Below, piece after piece: positions 15,209-55,697 of a stretch of 64,000 nucleotides of DNA; positions within the stretch are counted from its first letter, which is position 1; every line of letters begins with the position of its first letter. The DNA is from a virus. A program made the position numbers and the translations under genes. The stretch is taken from positions 1 through 64,000 of IMG/VR virus record IMGVR_UViG_3300028840_003224. One strand, 5' to 3'. The notes under the pieces were generated by a model. It had not been told where the DNA came from, did no database searches, and saw only the letters and a list, made by a program, of their open reading frames with translations.

Positions 15209-16018
15209 ATGAAGACTCTTTTCAATCACGTGAACATCTTGTGTTTTGACGGCGAAGGTGACGTGACTCCAGCGGACCCAGTAACTCCCGCAGCTCCTGA
15301 AGCTCCTGTGGTGACCGGCACGAATCCCGTGACGCCCGCTGGCGACGAGAAGAAATTCTCACAGGCCGACATAAACAAGATCCTTGCGGAAGACAAGCGC
15401 AAGCATCAAGAACGTTATGTCGCTCTCGAAGGCAGCTACAAAGACCTGCTGACGAACCAGAACCTCACCAAAGACGAACGCGACAGTCTGCAACAGCGAC
15501 TGGAAGACGTTCAGAAAGCCAACCGCACGAAAGACCAGCAAGCTGAGTTCGAGCGAAAGGCCGCCGAAGAGAAATACCAGAACGAGCTGAAGACCGCCAC
15601 AGCGCGAGCCGACCACTGGGAAAACCTGTTTAAGAAAGAGACCGTCTCGCGATCTCTGACTGACGCAGCCTCCAGTGCCGATGCGTACAACCCGCTGCAA
15701 GTTGTGACGATCCTCCAGCCGATGACCCAGTTGAAGGACATCGACGGGACATTGACCCCGATGGTCGACTTCCAAGACATCGACGAGAAGACGGGCGAGC
15801 CTGTCATCACTCTTCGCACCCCCGCCGACGCTGTGAAGCGTATGCAGGAGCTGCCGAAGATCCATGGCAACTTGTTCCGAAGCAATGTAGTCAGTGGCGT
15901 AGGCTCAGGCCAAGCCAGTGTCAGCAATGCTGGCGAAGTCGACTTCACCAATATGAGTGCCGCCGAGTACCGAAAGAATCGCCAAGCGATCAAGGACCGA
16001 ATGGCACAACAGAACTGA
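15209..16018 (+). CDS. Capsid scaffolding protein
   Basis: The 269-residue protein has a Pro/Ala-rich N-terminus, then a long Lys/Glu/Gln coiled coil at about residues 50-150 (KFSQADINKILAEDKRKHQER onward), then a smaller C-terminal domain. Length, composition and position directly upstream of the coat gene are those of a scaffold, which guides coat assembly and leaves the procapsid. There is no sign of a fused protease. An AAAGGTTAGG-type site precedes the ATG. Confidence 0.85.
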   Translation: MKTLFNHVNILCFDGEGDVTPADPVTPAAPEAPVVTGTNPVTPAGDEKKFSQADINKILAEDKRKHQERYVALEGSYKDLLTNQNLTKDERDSLQQRLEDVQKANRTKDQQAEFERKAAEEKYQNELKTATARADHWENLFKKETVSRSLTDAASSADAYNPLQVVTILQPMTQLKDIDGTLTPMVDFQDIDEKTGEPVITLRTPADAVKRMQELPKIHGNLFRSNVVSGVGSGQASVSNAGEVDFTNMSAAEYRKNRQAIKDRMAQQN

Positions 16019-16173: not shown

Positions 16174-17559
16174 ATGAACTTGTACCTCTGTTTCGCTAAC
16201 GACAACGACGCCTTGATCCCCGAACTGTGGGCCCAAGAATCCCTGGCAATCCTCGAAGAGAACATGGTGATGGCCAACTTGGTCCACCGTGATTTCAGCC
16301 CGTTGGTCGCCAGCTATGGTGACGTGGTCAACACCCGTCGACCCAGCGAGTTCTCGACCAAGCGTAAGGCTCAGTCGGACAGCGTTGTCAACCAGGACGC
16401 GATCAGCACCAACGTGCAGGTCCCGCTCAACCAACACGTCTACGTGACCTTCACGATCAAGGACGAAGAGGCTTCCTTGTCCTTCAAGGAATTGATCTCT
16501 TACTACATGGAACCCGCCGCGATGCAAATGGCTCGCACGGTAGACCGCATCCTGTGTGGTCAGGTCCATCGCTTCAACGCCAACGCCACTGGCCGTCTGG
16601 ATGAAATGTCCAGCTCGAACGCCAAGGATTGGATCTTGGAAACCCGTGAAGTCATGAACGTCAACAATGCGTATCCGACGGGTCGTAATTTGGTCGTGAG
16701 CCCTCAGGCTGAGACCGAAATGTTGAAGACCGAACTGTTCATCCAAGCCAACACGCGTGGCGACAATGGTACGGCTCTTGAGGAAGCACGACTCGGTCGC
16801 GTCCTCGGCTTCGACACTTACATGGACCAGAATGTCAACCATCGTCCTCTGTTGGACGGCGACACTCTGACCCTGAACCATGCTGCTGGCGCTAGCGCTG
16901 GCGACACGGGCAACAAAGCGGTCACCGCCTCCTCGGCAGTGACAGTCGGTTCGTTCGTATGGTTCACCGGCGAAGGTCAGCCTCACGAAGTGAAGGCTCT
17001 GACTGGTACCACGACTGGTATCACGCTGAACGATGCTTACAAGTATGCCGTCTCCGCGAATGCGGTTGGCTATGCTTGGGAACCCGCAGTGGTTGGCGCG
17101 ACGTACGCCGCTGGCTACGACAAGGGCATTACGCTCAACACCATCGCAGCTAACAAGCTGCCGCTCGTTGGCCAGATGATGGCTTTCGGTACGACCAATG
17201 GTGGCGACCGTCACGAGTACACGATCATCGAAGTTGACGCTGTGTCGACTACGAGTGTCATCGTTTGGCTCGACAAGCCCCTCACCGCCGCCGTCACCGC
17301 TGCGGACTTGGCCTTCCCAGGCCCGAGTGGCTCGATGTGCTTCGCGTTCCACCGTGACGCTTTGGCTCTGGTTAGCCGTCCTCTGGCGTTGCCTAGCAAC
17401 AGCCTGGGCGTGCAAGCTGCCGTTGGTAGCTTCAACAACCTCGCCATGCGAGTTGCGATGCAGTACGACATCTCCAGCCAGGGTACCATCGTGACCCTCG
17501 ACATGCTGTGTGGCGTGGCGACGCTGGATACCAACCTCGGTTGTGTTCTGTATGCGTGA
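16174..17559 (+). CDS. Major capsid protein, P22 gp5-like family
   Basis: The 461-residue product fits the P22 coat family. It has a short N-arm with LIPELWAQESLAILEENMVM and LVHRDFS, then a GDVVNTRRPSEF strand, then a central insertion of beta structure (about residues 225-370) where P22-like coats carry their I-domain. The C-terminal part includes FHRDALALVSRPLALP. It self-assembles into the icosahedral head with the scaffold encoded upstream. The N-arm is copied in the small protein at 52794-53075. Confidence 0.9.
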   Translation: MNLYLCFANDNDALIPELWAQESLAILEENMVMANLVHRDFSPLVASYGDVVNTRRPSEFSTKRKAQSDSVVNQDAISTNVQVPLNQHVYVTFTIKDEEASLSFKELISYYMEPAAMQMARTVDRILCGQVHRFNANATGRLDEMSSSNAKDWILETREVMNVNNAYPTGRNLVVSPQAETEMLKTELFIQANTRGDNGTALEEARLGRVLGFDTYMDQNVNHRPLLDGDTLTLNHAAGASAGDTGNKAVTASSAVTVGSFVWFTGEGQPHEVKALTGTTTGITLNDAYKYAVSANAVGYAWEPAVVGATYAAGYDKGITLNTIAANKLPLVGQMMAFGTTNGGDRHEYTIIEVDAVSTTSVIVWLDKPLTAAVTAADLAFPGPSGSMCFAFHRDALALVSRPLALPSNSLGVQAAVGSFNNLAMRVAMQYDISSQGTIVTLDMLCGVATLDTNLGCVLYA

Positions 17560-48599: not shown

Positions 48600-50490
48600 G
48601 AAACGACAGAAGCAGCTGGACGCGAAGCGCAAGACCAAGTCGCTGCGACAGAAGGCGGTGTCCGAGCAGCTCATCATCGAGCCCACCAAAGAGACGGGCA
48701 TCCCCGCACTGAATTACAATGCGTGCTTGAAGGCGGTCACCGCTCGCGACCCCAAGGTCTGGGACTTGATCATCAAGTACCTGCTGTTCTTCGAGTCGCA
48801 TCACTTCACCAAGTTCTCCACTGCGGCCATCAAGGTGCTGAATGAATTCGTTCAGATCACCAACACGGCTTTGATGGACGAAGAGTTTGTGCCGAACGAC
48901 AATCACGCACAAGGCCTCGTCCAGGTGGGTCACTTGTACCAGCACATCGTGGCCCTTACCGGCTACGAAACAACGGACGGCCCGCTGCGGAATGTGCTCA
49001 TCACAAAGGACAACGCAGCCAAGGTTCTGATGTTGCAGAACCCTCGATGCGTGACCCAGATCTCTCAGGACAACTTGTTCGCAGTCAGCCCGATACTGGC
49101 TTCGATGTGGTACCAAACCTACTTGCTCGGTATTTCGTCGCCTACCAATGTCATTCAGGCGAACATGTACAATCACATCAAGAACATCGACTCCCGGTGG
49201 GAGCCGTACTCGAACCACGTGTCTGGCATGTACTTCTCCAGCACCTATCATTGCCCTGAGCATGTACGCAACCTGAAGGCCATCATGAACACGGCCATGA
49301 AGAAGGCCATCAAAGAGAAGCTGAACTGGACGTTCACCAACAACCCAGACCCGAAGTCAATCGCGATCATCACCAACCGGTGGCACCGCAACCACGCAGT
49401 GTACAAGTCCGCTGGCCCGCTGGTAGAGCAGTGGAAGGACAAGTACAAGCTGACCCTGATCTGGACCGGAGAGCACAACCCAGACACGATAGTGACCGAC
49501 TACTTCGACTCGGTGCACAAGTGCTACTTCCGACAGGACGGCGGAATTGAGATGCCTGAGGCGTTGGTCGACAACGACTTCCAGATGGTATACTTCCCTG
49601 ACATCGGCATGTCGGACGAGAGCATCTGGCTGAGCAACTGTCGCATGGCCCCGATCCAAGCGGTCGGCTACGGTCACCCTGACACGACCGGCGACAACAA
49701 CGAAATCGACTACCACTTCGGTGGCGACGTCGAGAAGGACTGCGACCCAGAGGCCTACTCTGAGACTCGCGTCATGATCCCTGGTCTCGCACAAGAGCCC
49801 GCGTGGCCGACGTACGAGAGGAAGCACAACTACAAGGCTGACGGCATCGTTCGCATCAACTGCGTGTGGGGCCCCGACAAATACAACAACACGTTGTTGC
49901 AGATAGTCGGTGCTATCAACCAGCGAGTCATCGCCCTGAAGAAGGAAGCCGAATCGGAGCCAGTGCTCGACCACGAGTTCCACTTCTTCGCCAGCCCTGG
50001 GGTCAACCGCTACGCTGCGTTGCCTAGCTTCGTCAACGAGGCCCGCAAGATCGTGCCGAACATGATCATGCACAACGCACAGGAGTATTACGACTACATG
50101 GAGAACGCGGAGCAGCACGACCTCTCCCTGAACTCCTTCCCGTTCGGATGCTACAACGTTCTGATAGAGAGCCTCTACATGGGGCTGCCTTTCATCACGA
50201 TGGTCGGCTCTCGGTTCTACAACCGGGCCGGTATGTGGCTGAACGATCAGGTTGGCATGAGCGAGAACAACGTGACCTCGCCTCGTGACTTTGTCGAGCG
50301 AGCAGCCGAGCTGATCGTCGACCCGGAGAAACTTGCCGCGCAGCGGGAGCACTTGGCAAGCCTGAACCTGAAGGAACGACTGTTCACACTCAAGGGAAAC
50401 TACTTCCTTGAAGCCTTAGAGTACACACTAAAGAATCACCCTTTTACTGAAACGAAACTCATCGGAGAACCAAATGACCAAGCTGAATGA
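48586..50490 (+). CDS. GT-B glycosyltransferase, GT41 (OGT/HMW1C)-like
   Basis: The GTG at 48586 follows GGAGGT. The basic N-terminus (MARNKKRQKQLDAKRKTKS) leads into a helical region, then a GT-B enzyme. Signature parts are QAVGYGHPDTTGDNNEIDYH near residues 359-378 and LNSFPFGCYNVLIESLYMGL near 516-535, followed by PFITMVGSRFYNRAG. These match the acceptor and UDP-sugar binding segments of O-GlcNAc transferases and HMW1C-type N-glycosyltransferases. It could glycosylate proteins, possibly virion proteins. It overlaps the methyltransferase gene by 14 bases. Confidence 0.85.
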   Translation: MARNKKRQKQLDAKRKTKSLRQKAVSEQLIIEPTKETGIPALNYNACLKAVTARDPKVWDLIIKYLLFFESHHFTKFSTAAIKVLNEFVQITNTALMDEEFVPNDNHAQGLVQVGHLYQHIVALTGYETTDGPLRNVLITKDNAAKVLMLQNPRCVTQISQDNLFAVSPILASMWYQTYLLGISSPTNVIQANMYNHIKNIDSRWEPYSNHVSGMYFSSTYHCPEHVRNLKAIMNTAMKKAIKEKLNWTFTNNPDPKSIAIITNRWHRNHAVYKSAGPLVEQWKDKYKLTLIWTGEHNPDTIVTDYFDSVHKCYFRQDGGIEMPEALVDNDFQMVYFPDIGMSDESIWLSNCRMAPIQAVGYGHPDTTGDNNEIDYHFGGDVEKDCDPEAYSETRVMIPGLAQEPAWPTYERKHNYKADGIVRINCVWGPDKYNNTLLQIVGAINQRVIALKKEAESEPVLDHEFHFFASPGVNRYAALPSFVNEARKIVPNMIMHNAQEYYDYMENAEQHDLSLNSFPFGCYNVLIESLYMGLPFITMVGSRFYNRAGMWLNDQVGMSENNVTSPRDFVERAAELIVDPEKLAAQREHLASLNLKERLFTLKGNYFLEALEYTLKNHPFTETKLIGEPNDQAE

Positions 50491-51748
50491 AAAGAGCGTG
50501 AAAGAGATCAAGGTGGATCTCTCAGAGAAGCTACTCACTCAGAAGGAAATCGGCACGAAGTACGGCGTCAGCCGGTCTGTCATCAGTGACATCGCCTGTG
50601 GCCGAGTACACAAAGACGTCAAAGCGGAGATAGTCATGACCGAGCAAGACGCCCAGATCTTCAAGCTGCAATCCGACAACGAGCATCTCCGAGACGAACG
50701 CAACAAGTACAAGCGGCAGCTCAAGTCCGCCGCCAAGACTCAGGGCTTGTTCCAAGCCGTGGTCGAGGAGATGGACGAACGAGTCAAGCCGATGCGTCCG
50801 CTGCCCTCGGCACGCCCCAAGTTCAAGAAGGACGGCAAGGGCACCATCCGCGAGCACCTCGTGATGCACATCAGTGATGGTCACCACGACCAGATCGTCA
50901 CGCCCGACGACACGGGCGGACTGGAGACCTATGACTTCCCCATTTCGATGTGTCGGGCCGAGAGGTATGTTGACACGATCCTCAAGTGGACCCAGCAGAC
51001 CTTGCAAGGCTTCGCCTTCCCCAGCCTCACCGTGCTGGCCTACGGCGACCACACGTCCGGCGAGATTCATGGACATACATCGCGATCCTATTTCCGCAAC
51101 GCTTTTAAGAATGCGTTTGCTATCGGTCAACTCCACTCGCTGATGTACCGCGACCTCGCCCCGTACTTTGATCAGGTCAACATCGTCTACGTGCCGGGCA
51201 ACCACGGTCGCCGGTCCAATAAGAAGGACTACCATGGCGCGCATGACAACTGGGACTACCTGATCGCCAAGACCGCCGAGATGTATCTCCGCGACTTGCC
51301 GAACGTTTCCTTCAACATTCCCAACTCGTTCTCGTGCAACCTGGACATTGGCGGCGTCGGCTTCCAAGTCTTCCATGGCGACGACATCCGCTCAAGCTTG
51401 GGCATTCCGTGGTACGGCCTGGAGAAGCGCCGTCACCGAATGATGGCCTTGAACGGTGTTCAGAACTGTACCCCGATTCGCTACTACTGTTGCGGTCACT
51501 TCCACCGCCCCGGTTCGACGACCGAGGTGAATGGCGAGATGCTCATCAACGGCGCGTGGCCTGCAAGTGACGCCTACGCGTTCAACGCCCTCGGCGGGTT
51601 CACTGAACCTTCCCAGTTGATCCACGGCGTCAACAAGGACTATGGTATCACGTGGCGGCTTCCTGTGAAGCTGCGTTGTCCCTACGAAGCGACTGGACCG
51701 CGTCGTTACAAGATCGACCAGATGGAAGAGATCGCAGCGGCACTGTAG
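50474..51748 (+). CDS. Calcineurin-like metallophosphoesterase with N-terminal HTH
   Basis: Residues 20-48 look like a helix-turn-helix (LTQKEIGTKYGVSRSVISDI). A coiled coil follows (residues 58-90). The phosphoesterase motifs are in order: HISDGHHD (near residue 131), AYGDHTSGEIHG (near 190), YVPGNHGR (near 240), FQVFHGDD (near 298) and CCGHFHR (near 339). Enzymes of this type in phages act as nucleases or phosphatases in DNA metabolism. It overlaps the glycosyltransferase gene by 17 bases. Confidence 0.88.
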   Translation: MTKLNEKSVKEIKVDLSEKLLTQKEIGTKYGVSRSVISDIACGRVHKDVKAEIVMTEQDAQIFKLQSDNEHLRDERNKYKRQLKSAAKTQGLFQAVVEEMDERVKPMRPLPSARPKFKKDGKGTIREHLVMHISDGHHDQIVTPDDTGGLETYDFPISMCRAERYVDTILKWTQQTLQGFAFPSLTVLAYGDHTSGEIHGHTSRSYFRNAFKNAFAIGQLHSLMYRDLAPYFDQVNIVYVPGNHGRRSNKKDYHGAHDNWDYLIAKTAEMYLRDLPNVSFNIPNSFSCNLDIGGVGFQVFHGDDIRSSLGIPWYGLEKRRHRMMALNGVQNCTPIRYYCCGHFHRPGSTTEVNGEMLINGAWPASDAYAFNALGGFTEPSQLIHGVNKDYGITWRLPVKLRCPYEATGPRRYKIDQMEEIAAAL

Positions 51749-52066: not shown

Positions 52067-52792
52067 ATGGCTGGTACTATTGCCACTTTCCTGACCGCTG
52101 CATCGACCATCAACACCAACGAAGACTCTGACCAGAAAGGTCAGCAGCGCCACGCGTACAAAGAGCTGCTTGACCTTCAAGCGATCAACGACCCCACCTT
52201 GTCGCCGCCGTACTTCGCTGATGACGCTTCGGCGTCCATCGCTGCCAACGGAGGCACGACTGGCAACTTCACTATCACACTCAGCTTCCCGAAGGTGGGC
52301 GTCGAAGTCACCACAGGCAACATCGCCTACAACTCGGCGAACGCCGCCGTCCAGACCGCTCTCGACACCGCCCTGTCTGGAGAGGTTCTGAACGAGACGT
52401 ACACCGCTGACGACCTCAAGGTTGGTGTGACTGCTAACGCGTCGTCGGCAGCCATCAGCATGACGGCGAACGGAGACTCAGTCACCAACTTGAACATGCT
52501 CGTCACGACGGCCAACGTCGACATGGACGTAGCAGCACCGGCAGTCACCGCCACTGGCGTTGGCACTGGCAACCGCCAGGGTGAAGCCCTCCTGGCTTAC
52601 CTCAGCGTTGTGACGCCCTTGGGCACCATTACGCCTCAGGGTGACACGCCTGCCGAAGGCGACTACGTGTTGGGTGACAACCCATTCTCACTGAGCCCCG
52701 GCTTGCAGGAGATTATCATCTCCTCGATCCAGCGGGACGAAGACAAGACTATTGGCGACGCCATCCGCGAAGTAGTGGGGTGTGTCCGATAG
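52067..52792 (+). CDS. Virion-like structural protein outside the structural block (241 aa)
   Basis: The protein is Ala/Thr/Asn-rich and beta-strand-like. Its middle (NGGTTGNFTITLSF, VTTGNIAYNSANAAVQTALD) carries the NIxYNASAAxVQxAL pattern found in many phage and bacterial surface proteins, and the flanks resemble capsid or tail proteins. AGGAG precedes the ATG. It lies 15-30 kb from the structural genes, directly before the coat-arm mimic gene, so the two may form a late-acting accessory cassette. Confidence 0.6.
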   Translation: MAGTIATFLTAASTINTNEDSDQKGQQRHAYKELLDLQAINDPTLSPPYFADDASASIAANGGTTGNFTITLSFPKVGVEVTTGNIAYNSANAAVQTALDTALSGEVLNETYTADDLKVGVTANASSAAISMTANGDSVTNLNMLVTTANVDMDVAAPAVTATGVGTGNRQGEALLAYLSVVTPLGTITPQGDTPAEGDYVLGDNPFSLSPGLQEIIISSIQRDEDKTIGDAIREVVGCVR

Positions 52793-52793
52793 C

Positions 52794-53075
52794 ATGAAAC
52801 GAAGATCGTTTCTTAGGGTGATTGGAGCGGCAATACCAGCAATGGTGTTGCCGCTTCCTTTGTTGGGAGGCAGCACCCCCTCTGTAGCGGCGGTCCCCGC
52901 CCCCTGTGCGGTGGGAACCACTGGCATAGATTGTTTTGTACCTGAGTCCTGGGCATGCGATGGCCTAAAGGTACTCCAAGAGAACATGGCGATAGCTGAC
53001 ATTGTACACCGAGACTTTGAACCGCACGCCGCGAAGGCGATGGACAGAGTCAGAACAGAAAGAGGAGTGAAATGA
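52794..53075 (+). CDS. Tat-signal protein carrying a copy of the major coat protein N-arm (93 aa)
   Basis: The ATG at 52794 gives MKRRSFLRVIGAAIPAMVLP, a twin-arginine signal with an AxA site near residue 33; the GTG at 52782 is a less likely start. Residues 48-90 align without gaps to residues 14-56 of the coat protein (16174-17559). Twenty-one of 43 residues are identical, including P-E-x-W-A, LxxLxEN and VHRDF. The copy stops where the coat's main fold would begin. It may be an exported coat-arm mimic, or a truncated coat relic fused to a signal. It is coupled by ATGA to the next gene. Confidence 0.75.
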   Translation: MKRRSFLRVIGAAIPAMVLPLPLLGGSTPSVAAVPAPCAVGTTGIDCFVPESWACDGLKVLQENMAIADIVHRDFEPHAAKAMDRVRTERGVK

Positions 53076-54619: not shown

Positions 54620-54885
54620 ACAAGAACTCTCCGTTCTGGCCGGTCAACGACGCGGCCTCCCGCCAAGTCTACGCGTCGCCGCCAACGCTGGCGGTCGTCC
54701 GCATCTACTCATCCGTCAACTACTTTGAAGATCGCAGGTTGGAGTTGGAGTGGCGAGGCAGCAAAGCTCTCACCGTGGCCCAGCTGTACGACAACGCCTT
54801 GGGCGGTTACTGGATCGAGGACGCTTTCATGCCTCGCGAGCACTTGCGTTTCATCACTGTCGGCAAACCATTTACAAAGGACTAA
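54616..54885 (+). CDS. Hypothetical protein (89 aa)
   Basis: The product starts MNKNSPFWPVNDAASRQVYA and contains LELEWRGSKALTVAQLYDNA and WIEDAFMPREHLRFI. It is a small unknown protein in a chain of coupled genes. Confidence 0.6.
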   Translation: MNKNSPFWPVNDAASRQVYASPPTLAVVRIYSSVNYFEDRRLELEWRGSKALTVAQLYDNALGGYWIEDAFMPREHLRFITVGKPFTKD

Positions 54886-54887
54886 CC

Positions 54888-55697
54888 ATGTGGAAACGAA
54901 TTCGTATAGCTATCGTGGTCGCTCTTATTACGACCGCGCTATTGATCGGCAGCCAACTGAAGGCCCAGCCGTTCCAGACGTACCCGGAGCAGAGGTGTGT
55001 GAAGAACGAAGGCTACGGGATGATCATCAACGACTTGGAGTGTCACGCCAGGGCGGGACACCCGATGCGGAACGAGAAGGACCCAGGGAACTGGGTTCAT
55101 GAACTCTGCCACCAAGTCAGCAGCGACATCCGTTGCAAGACCAAGGCGAACGACAACGCCATCTACCTGCTGAACAATCACTACGTGATCTTCGTCGAGC
55201 CAGACGTCACCTTGAAGCAGGTGGCTGCGATGGTGCACAAGACGCGGCGGACTGAGACCTGGAAGTTGTACCTCGTCGAGCAACAGCGTTACTGGAACCG
55301 CGAGCCACTCTACATCCTGGACGAGGGCAACGCGTTTGCCATGAGCGTTCTGTATCACACGATGGCGGGCACCGAGGACCCTTACAGGTACACGAAGGCG
55401 AAGGAATTCATCTACTTCTCCGAGGTGCTCCTGAAAGCCGTCAAGTATTACGACCCAGACTACGCCCAGCTGGAAGACCTGGAAGCGTTCATCAAGTACC
55501 AGAACAACCGAGTGAACAACATCCTCAAGCTGTACGACTACGAGGGTGGCGGCCCTGTGCCTGATGAGATCATCCCGGATGAGCTACCGGTGCCTGATGA
55601 GATCAACCCTGACCTTCCAATCGACTACGTCTTCAGCGGAGCCAGCTATCACAACCGTGGCCGGACGAAGAAGTTCTTTAAGAAAGCGGGGAAATAA
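54888..55697 (+). CDS. Exported zincin-like metallopeptidase candidate (HExxH)
   Basis: The ATG at 54888 gives an N-terminal signal or anchor (residues 6-22, IRIAIVVALITTALLIG). Residues 70-76 read VHELCHQ, an HExxH zinc-binding motif. Glu146 in YILDEGNAF is well placed as a third ligand, as in gluzincins. The C-terminus is Pro/Asp/Glu-rich, then basic (RGRTKKFFKKAGK). It may cleave envelope proteins or peptides outside the cytoplasm. Only the motif supports this, so activity is unproven. Confidence 0.6.
   Translation: MWKRIRIAIVVALITTALLIGSQLKAQPFQTYPEQRCVKNEGYGMIINDLECHARAGHPMRNEKDPGNWVHELCHQVSSDIRCKTKANDNAIYLLNNHYVIFVEPDVTLKQVAAMVHKTRRTETWKLYLVEQQRYWNREPLYILDEGNAFAMSVLYHTMAGTEDPYRYTKAKEFIYFSEVLLKAVKYYDPDYAQLEDLEAFIKYQNNRVNNILKLYDYEGGGPVPDEIIPDELPVPDEINPDLPIDYVFSGASYHNRGRTKKFFKKAGK

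Follow-up and report, generated by a model that had tools for sequence, protein, structure and literature searches.

A short phage protein joining a twin-arginine motif to a segment derived from the P22-type coat N-arm

The stretch of DNA analyzed here (hereafter the window) comprises the first 64,000 nt of the IMG/VR virus record IMGVR_UViG_3300028840_003224. At positions 52794..53075 (plus strand, as are the other window features placed below by two dots) it carries an open reading frame for a protein of 93 amino acids, P0001 (MKRRSFLRVIGAAIPAMVLPLPLLGGSTPSVAAVPAPCAVGTTGIDCFVPESWACDGLKVLQENMAIADIVHRDFEPHAAKAMDRVRTERGVK), which starts 2 bases past the stop codon of the preceding gene and is built of two parts. 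The first is a twin-arginine (Tat) motif, MKRRSFLR (residues 1–8; 52794..52817), after which come a hydrophobic stretch and a linker. The second is a copy of the N-terminal arm of the phage's own coat protein (residues 46–90, DCFVPESWACDGLKVLQENMAIADIVHRDFEPHAAKAMDRVRTER; 52929..53063), within which residues 48–75 (FVPES...HRDF; 52935..53018) form the core arm common to several phages, as delimited by a five-member alignment, by pS/pN and by a predicted helix.

The locus is marked by a phosphoesterase-like gene, read from sequence, that lies outside the mimic gene (50474..51748; 35 related loci). Directly 5' of the mimic is a gene of 241 amino acids (52067..52792), which is conserved directly 3' of the phosphoesterase gene in several phages at 45–50% identity. 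It had no library match over threshold, and its description as virion-like in the earlier note found no support, with neither a Pfam match over threshold nor a PHROG match. Homologs of this gene occur without a Tat-arm gene at loci L091, L095 and L097–L100, where other genes were found when a Tat-arm gene was sought at the same place. The protein encoded at 54882-55697, which opens with a signal-like sequence and contains the HExxH motif NWVHELCHQ (conserved in L091 as HELTHQ), is likely a secreted metallopeptidase, judging from these features.

The source family of the arm is that of the major coat protein (16174..17559), which is of the P22 type (PF11651, E 4.4e-35; phrog_283) and whose structure model (pLDDT 84.9) had the coats of Sf6, CUS-3 and P22 as best Foldseek matches. 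The P0001 segment was the only second match to this coat in the 73.9-kb record. Residues 45–90 of P0001 matched coat residues 11–56 with an E-value of 1.4e-10, and the ungapped core, which covers the coat N-arm segment of residues 12–56 (16207..16341), had 22 identities in 45 positions and a score of 118, whereas the best of 1000 shuffles scored 45. The coat-arm match reported in the earlier note was thus borne out. PExWA, LxEN and HRD were all kept in this gapless alignment, and a profile built from coat N-arms alone scored P0001 at 50.5 bits. The near- or fully invariant coat residues (P16, W19, A20, E22, L27, N30, R39 and D40) were largely retained in the Tat arms described below. PF11651 did not match P0001, for which there was no Pfam match at E ≤ 1, and the Pfam, PHROGs, NCBIfam and PADLOC profile libraries gave no other assignment for the coat-arm segment; placement in an unrelated family, which had been named as a possible objection, was therefore given by none of them. 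P0001 is a fragment derived from the P22-type coat family and no coat protein itself, having neither the Pfam match nor the core fold.

The copy had also been claimed to end where the core fold of the coat begins. This is only roughly right, because the N-arm helix (residues 16–30) and the strands at 38–41 and 51–55 of the coat model lie within the copied part, which has no clean stop. The conserved piece in relatives is shorter than the P0001 copy, beginning with PExWA and ending at HRD(F). Overall, the predicted structure of P0001 was weak (pLDDT 62.6, pTM 0.32), the arm helix being its sole confident part (pLDDT about 90 over residues 51–70).

Four further IMG/VR contigs encode a short protein of the same build, in which the start MKRR[STN]FL[KR], kept in all five members, is followed by a loose linker and a coat N-arm; a P22-type coat gene is likewise present on all four contigs. 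The five members occupy at least four gene neighborhoods. The L090 member (74 aa; L090:8084-8308) lies at the window's locus, after the phosphoesterase gene and a homolog of the 52067 gene, and retains the initial portion of the arm only (VPEVWAQEALKVIED). The L126 member (88 aa; L126:5001-5267), whose arm is CDCFVPELWARESVLILKENMKIAEIIHRD, is found 3' of a DnaQ-like exonuclease gene read from sequence. The L183 member (81 aa; L183:2989-3234) belongs to contig G060, a 129-kb phage, and ends at CIAERWAEESLSILEENMIISELIHRDFI. Finally, the L179 member (98 aa; L179:892-1188) is located beside putative terminase subunit genes, again read from sequence, and has the arm NTLFSPTLIAKEALNVLKENL...GTIKIRKP, which is of a different P22-coat subtype. 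This arm scored 73 with 14 identities against its own coat subtype, at best 53 against coats of the window's subtype and 43 or less against the other Tat arms. Because the best fit of the L179 arm is to the coat subtype of its own phage, the comparison suggests that the pairing of signal and arm had more than one origin, or that the arm tracks the local coat type. The gene at 52794-53075 probably encodes a working protein of a previously undescribed kind, since four further phages retain the signal and the arm together.

It should be noted that the 101.6-kb contig IMGVR_UViG_3300017963_000216 is 100% identical to the window's 73.9-kb record over 12 kb; the two represent one virus, so the contig has no independent weight. 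For the same reason the window's record is likely incomplete.

When about 96 related contigs were searched with the arm profile, G043, G044, G045 and G060 were the only ones with an additional arm in a short frame; arm fragments in G007 and G053 turned out to be interrupted coat genes. Among the ∼30 contigs of at least 50 kb with this coat type, some of which may be incomplete, only G060 carried the gene. The gene is therefore rare among large related contigs and accessory, which argues against a core role in assembly. No homolog of the whole of P0001 was found in isolated phages (INPHARED, tblastn), where a match in Microcystis phage MaAM05 (E 0.1) lay in a protein of 277 aa that begins like a coat and the matches of the L179 protein, with weak E-values, were to coats, for example those of P26218 and BA3. 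A single scan of a bacterial genome collection, using the VPE[LSV]WA pattern only, revealed no member.

We then consider the signal half. The Tat motif that had been pointed out in P0001 (KRRSFLR) is real: an RRxFL[KR] motif near the N-terminus and a hydrophobic stretch were present in all five members. The top TIGR01409 score of P0001 was 14.7 bits, slightly below the cut-off of 16.7; this family matched four members (14.7, 11.6, 13.7 and 14.6 bits), all below that cut-off, and P0008 scored 14.2 bits against PF10518, below its cut-off of 22.7. Targeting by the Tat route would be consistent with these features. No other convincing Tat-like ORF was observed within the 64,000-nt window. In G060, a TatA-like protein (L183:4275-4445; PF02416, E 7e-10; TIGR01411, E 4e-11) is encoded ∼1 kb 3' of the Tat-arm gene. 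TatA-like matches occurred in 3 of 44 related contigs searched (L183, L190 and L191), one of which has a TGA within its frame; a TatA encoded by a bacteriophage seems unusual. Tat-like phage proteins without an arm were also seen (L120:9662-10156, L133:5963-6250, L182:4001-4375, L183:5048-5527, L190:852-1277 and L199:4001-4738), in several positions, among them beside a scaffold-like gene. Given these armless proteins, Tat use appears to be a wider habit of these phages, of which the arm would be one passenger.

The arm was conserved between phages. Between P0001 and the P0007 arm, pS was 0.87 and pN 0.23 (28 codons), and between the L183 and P0007 arms the values were 0.93 and 0.28; these figures are rough, with synonymous sites near saturation and short comparisons, and both point the same way. 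The conservation check proposed in the earlier note therefore came out in its favor, with homologs retaining both signal and arm and synonymous change exceeding nonsynonymous change. Some of this constraint would be owed to coat branches if the arms go back to separate captures from coats. The sequence 3' of HRD, which differed completely among the five members, provides a contrast to the arm within the same proteins. Residues identical between arms and their own coats frequently used different codons (13/20, 8/13, 9/14 and 10/14). In addition, the own coat ranked only 80th for P0001, 88th for P0007 and 75th for L183 (counted from zero) among 115 coat arms as a match to the Tat arm, and all three of these arms carry an acid (D or E) at the site equivalent to coat N35, whereas the residues listed there for 65 distinct coat arms included no acid. 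On the basis of these low ranks and of the acidic residue, the Tat arms appear to be no recent copies of the own coat. A tree of 28 arm columns neither showed nor rejected a single origin (p-AU 0.50).

A candidate partner of the arm is the scaffolding protein (15209..16018; phrog_2303, head scaffolding, E 7e-4), which has a basic C-terminus (AEYRKNRQAIKDRMAQQN). In the P22 procapsid, the C-terminal helices of the scaffold (R293 and K296) bind the coat N-arm (D14, E15 and E18) (PMC9965877). Basic helices also form the C-termini of scaffolds in related phages, for example EQYRKLRRENPEALGLKRR. The acid of WAx[ED] (D or E) was present in all five members (IAKE in L179), and the second acid, in LxEN, was kept in the Tat arms (as D in L090). 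Because the P22 arm binds scaffold, these scaffolds end in basic residues and the Tat arms keep the acids, we infer that the arm may still dock on the scaffold.

The core idea of the earlier note, a coat-arm mimic with an export signal, thus holds; its reading, with a dominant negative, an exclusion factor, a decoy and an assembly factor as candidate roles, is partly supported overall. Our tentative first choice is that a Tat-targeted arm mimic engages the arm's normal partner and interferes with head assembly of related phages. The protein would consist of a Tat-type signal for targeting, a flexible linker, and a helix and strand that represent an ancient copy of the N-arm of a P22-type coat. 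Retention of the arm would reflect its continued docking on whatever the coat arm binds, most probably the basic hook at the C-terminus of the scaffolding protein, and the signal would take this bait to the inner membrane, or export it, perhaps with the bound partner. Scaffold, or else coat, belonging to this head type would be tied up and head assembly of co-infecting related phages hindered; the main target might be a related phage's scaffold, because the arm fits the coats of other phages better than its own. This resemblance and the rare, accessory nature of the gene are why we favor interference over a role in the phage's own assembly. However, a free arm would bind the own scaffold too, a fully exported protein would meet neither coat nor scaffold, and interference in the cytoplasm needs no Tat signal. 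The closeness to other coats may equally reflect horizontal transfer, and the L090 member keeps only the arm's first part. A broader version is doubtful, namely that P22-type phages repeatedly made the coat N-arm a Tat-targeted bait that draws related phages' scaffold or coat to the membrane or expels it from the cell, which would amount to exclusion at head assembly via the export machinery, once with a phage TatA.

The Tat motif in five of five members and the phage TatA in one could also fit an exapted arm helix with a periplasmic job, in which the amphipathic helix, after export, would affect the envelope or the timing of lysis, with the coat as no more than its origin. That these phages encode other Tat-signalled proteins without the arm agrees with such a role, as does T4 RI, an example of how small secreted phage proteins regulate lysis (PMC8385771). 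We consider this explanation rather unlikely, however, since the residues conserved in the arm, HRD among them, are the same ones that are retained in coats, and one member goes with another coat subtype; this suggests a continued importance of the partner bound by the coat itself.

If the arm recruits that partner for the phage's own benefit, the protein might be a membrane tether for its own proheads, with the signal at the membrane or the Tat complex, the arm bringing in scaffold or coat, and assembly starting at the inner membrane. T4, with its membrane-bound portal gp20 and chaperone gp40, offers a precedent (PMC9958956), the P22 arm is the scaffold-docking part (PMC9965877), and the Tat-arm genes overlap or adjoin their neighbors in an operon-like manner. 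Yet most large related contigs with the same coat type have no such gene, the genes lie mostly in replication-type regions away from head genes, and Tat topology would place the arm outside, which together make a tether unlikely.

Improbable in our estimation is an anti-defence decoy, whose arm would occupy a host sensor that recognizes coat protein and thereby remove or relocate it. Host systems that sense capsids are known, including a capsid-activated system (PMC9712102) and Thoeris (PMC12578639), and such a target would suit an arm strongly conserved in these coats and an accessory gene; on the other hand, no host sensor is known for these phages, an epitope peptide might trigger rather than block a sensor, and the mimic had no PADLOC match at E ≤ 1. 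A relic of coat duplication joined to a signal by chance, as the truncated L090 copy and the absence of the gene from most relatives could suggest, is very improbable, because the pairing is present in five phages with open frames, homologs retain signal and arm alike and differ more at synonymous than at nonsynonymous sites, the arm is kept while synonymous sites are near saturation, and G045 used a different coat subtype.

Comparison with known systems helps to place the favored interference reading. With P22-type coats (PF11651; P22 gp5, Sf6 and CUS-3) the protein shares the arm and its PExWA, LxEN and HRD motifs, whereas it comprises only ∼30–45 arm residues, lacks the E-loop, spine helix and A-domain, and has a Tat signal. 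Twin-arginine proteins (TIGR01409, PF10518) share the MKRR[STN]FL[KR] start and the hydrophobic region, but the mimic scores below their cut-offs and its passenger is a coat fragment rather than an enzyme. The likeness to T4 prohead initiation, relevant to the tether, is that head assembly would be linked to the inner membrane; gp20 is a portal and gp40 a chaperone, and neither is a coat fragment or Tat-targeted. Closest to interference are the capsid piracy factors SaPI CpmB and P4 Sid, small proteins that act on the coat-scaffold interplay of another phage. They act as scaffolds towards the coat, whereas the mimic resembles the coat side and carries a targeting signal. PADLOC defence models gave no match to P0001 at E ≤ 1, and no Tat-signalled coat fragment was described in the open-access literature searched. 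Since the protein is no coat, has no match in a defence library and resembles nothing in those papers, the evidence supports a new two-part architecture that no described family fits.

If the interference reading is true, the assembly-interface part of a shell protein serves phages as a separate, membrane-directed tool. Virion assembly would be tied to protein export, giving a new route of competition among phages with a common head type, and arm peptides would be natural probes for the coat-scaffold contact.

As a separate observation, the coat genes of several related phages were interrupted within the N-arm codons, just 3' of PELWA. In G005 (L024:1058-1950), G044 (L128:1-479) and G053 (L185:1057-1373) these coats had Rfam group I intron matches (E 1.2e-20, 8.4e-10 and 4e-16, the match at 8.4e-10 being cut and marginally below the gathering score). 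The G007 coat has a similar gap with no Rfam match, and HNH-like ORFs adjoin the coat in G044 and G060.
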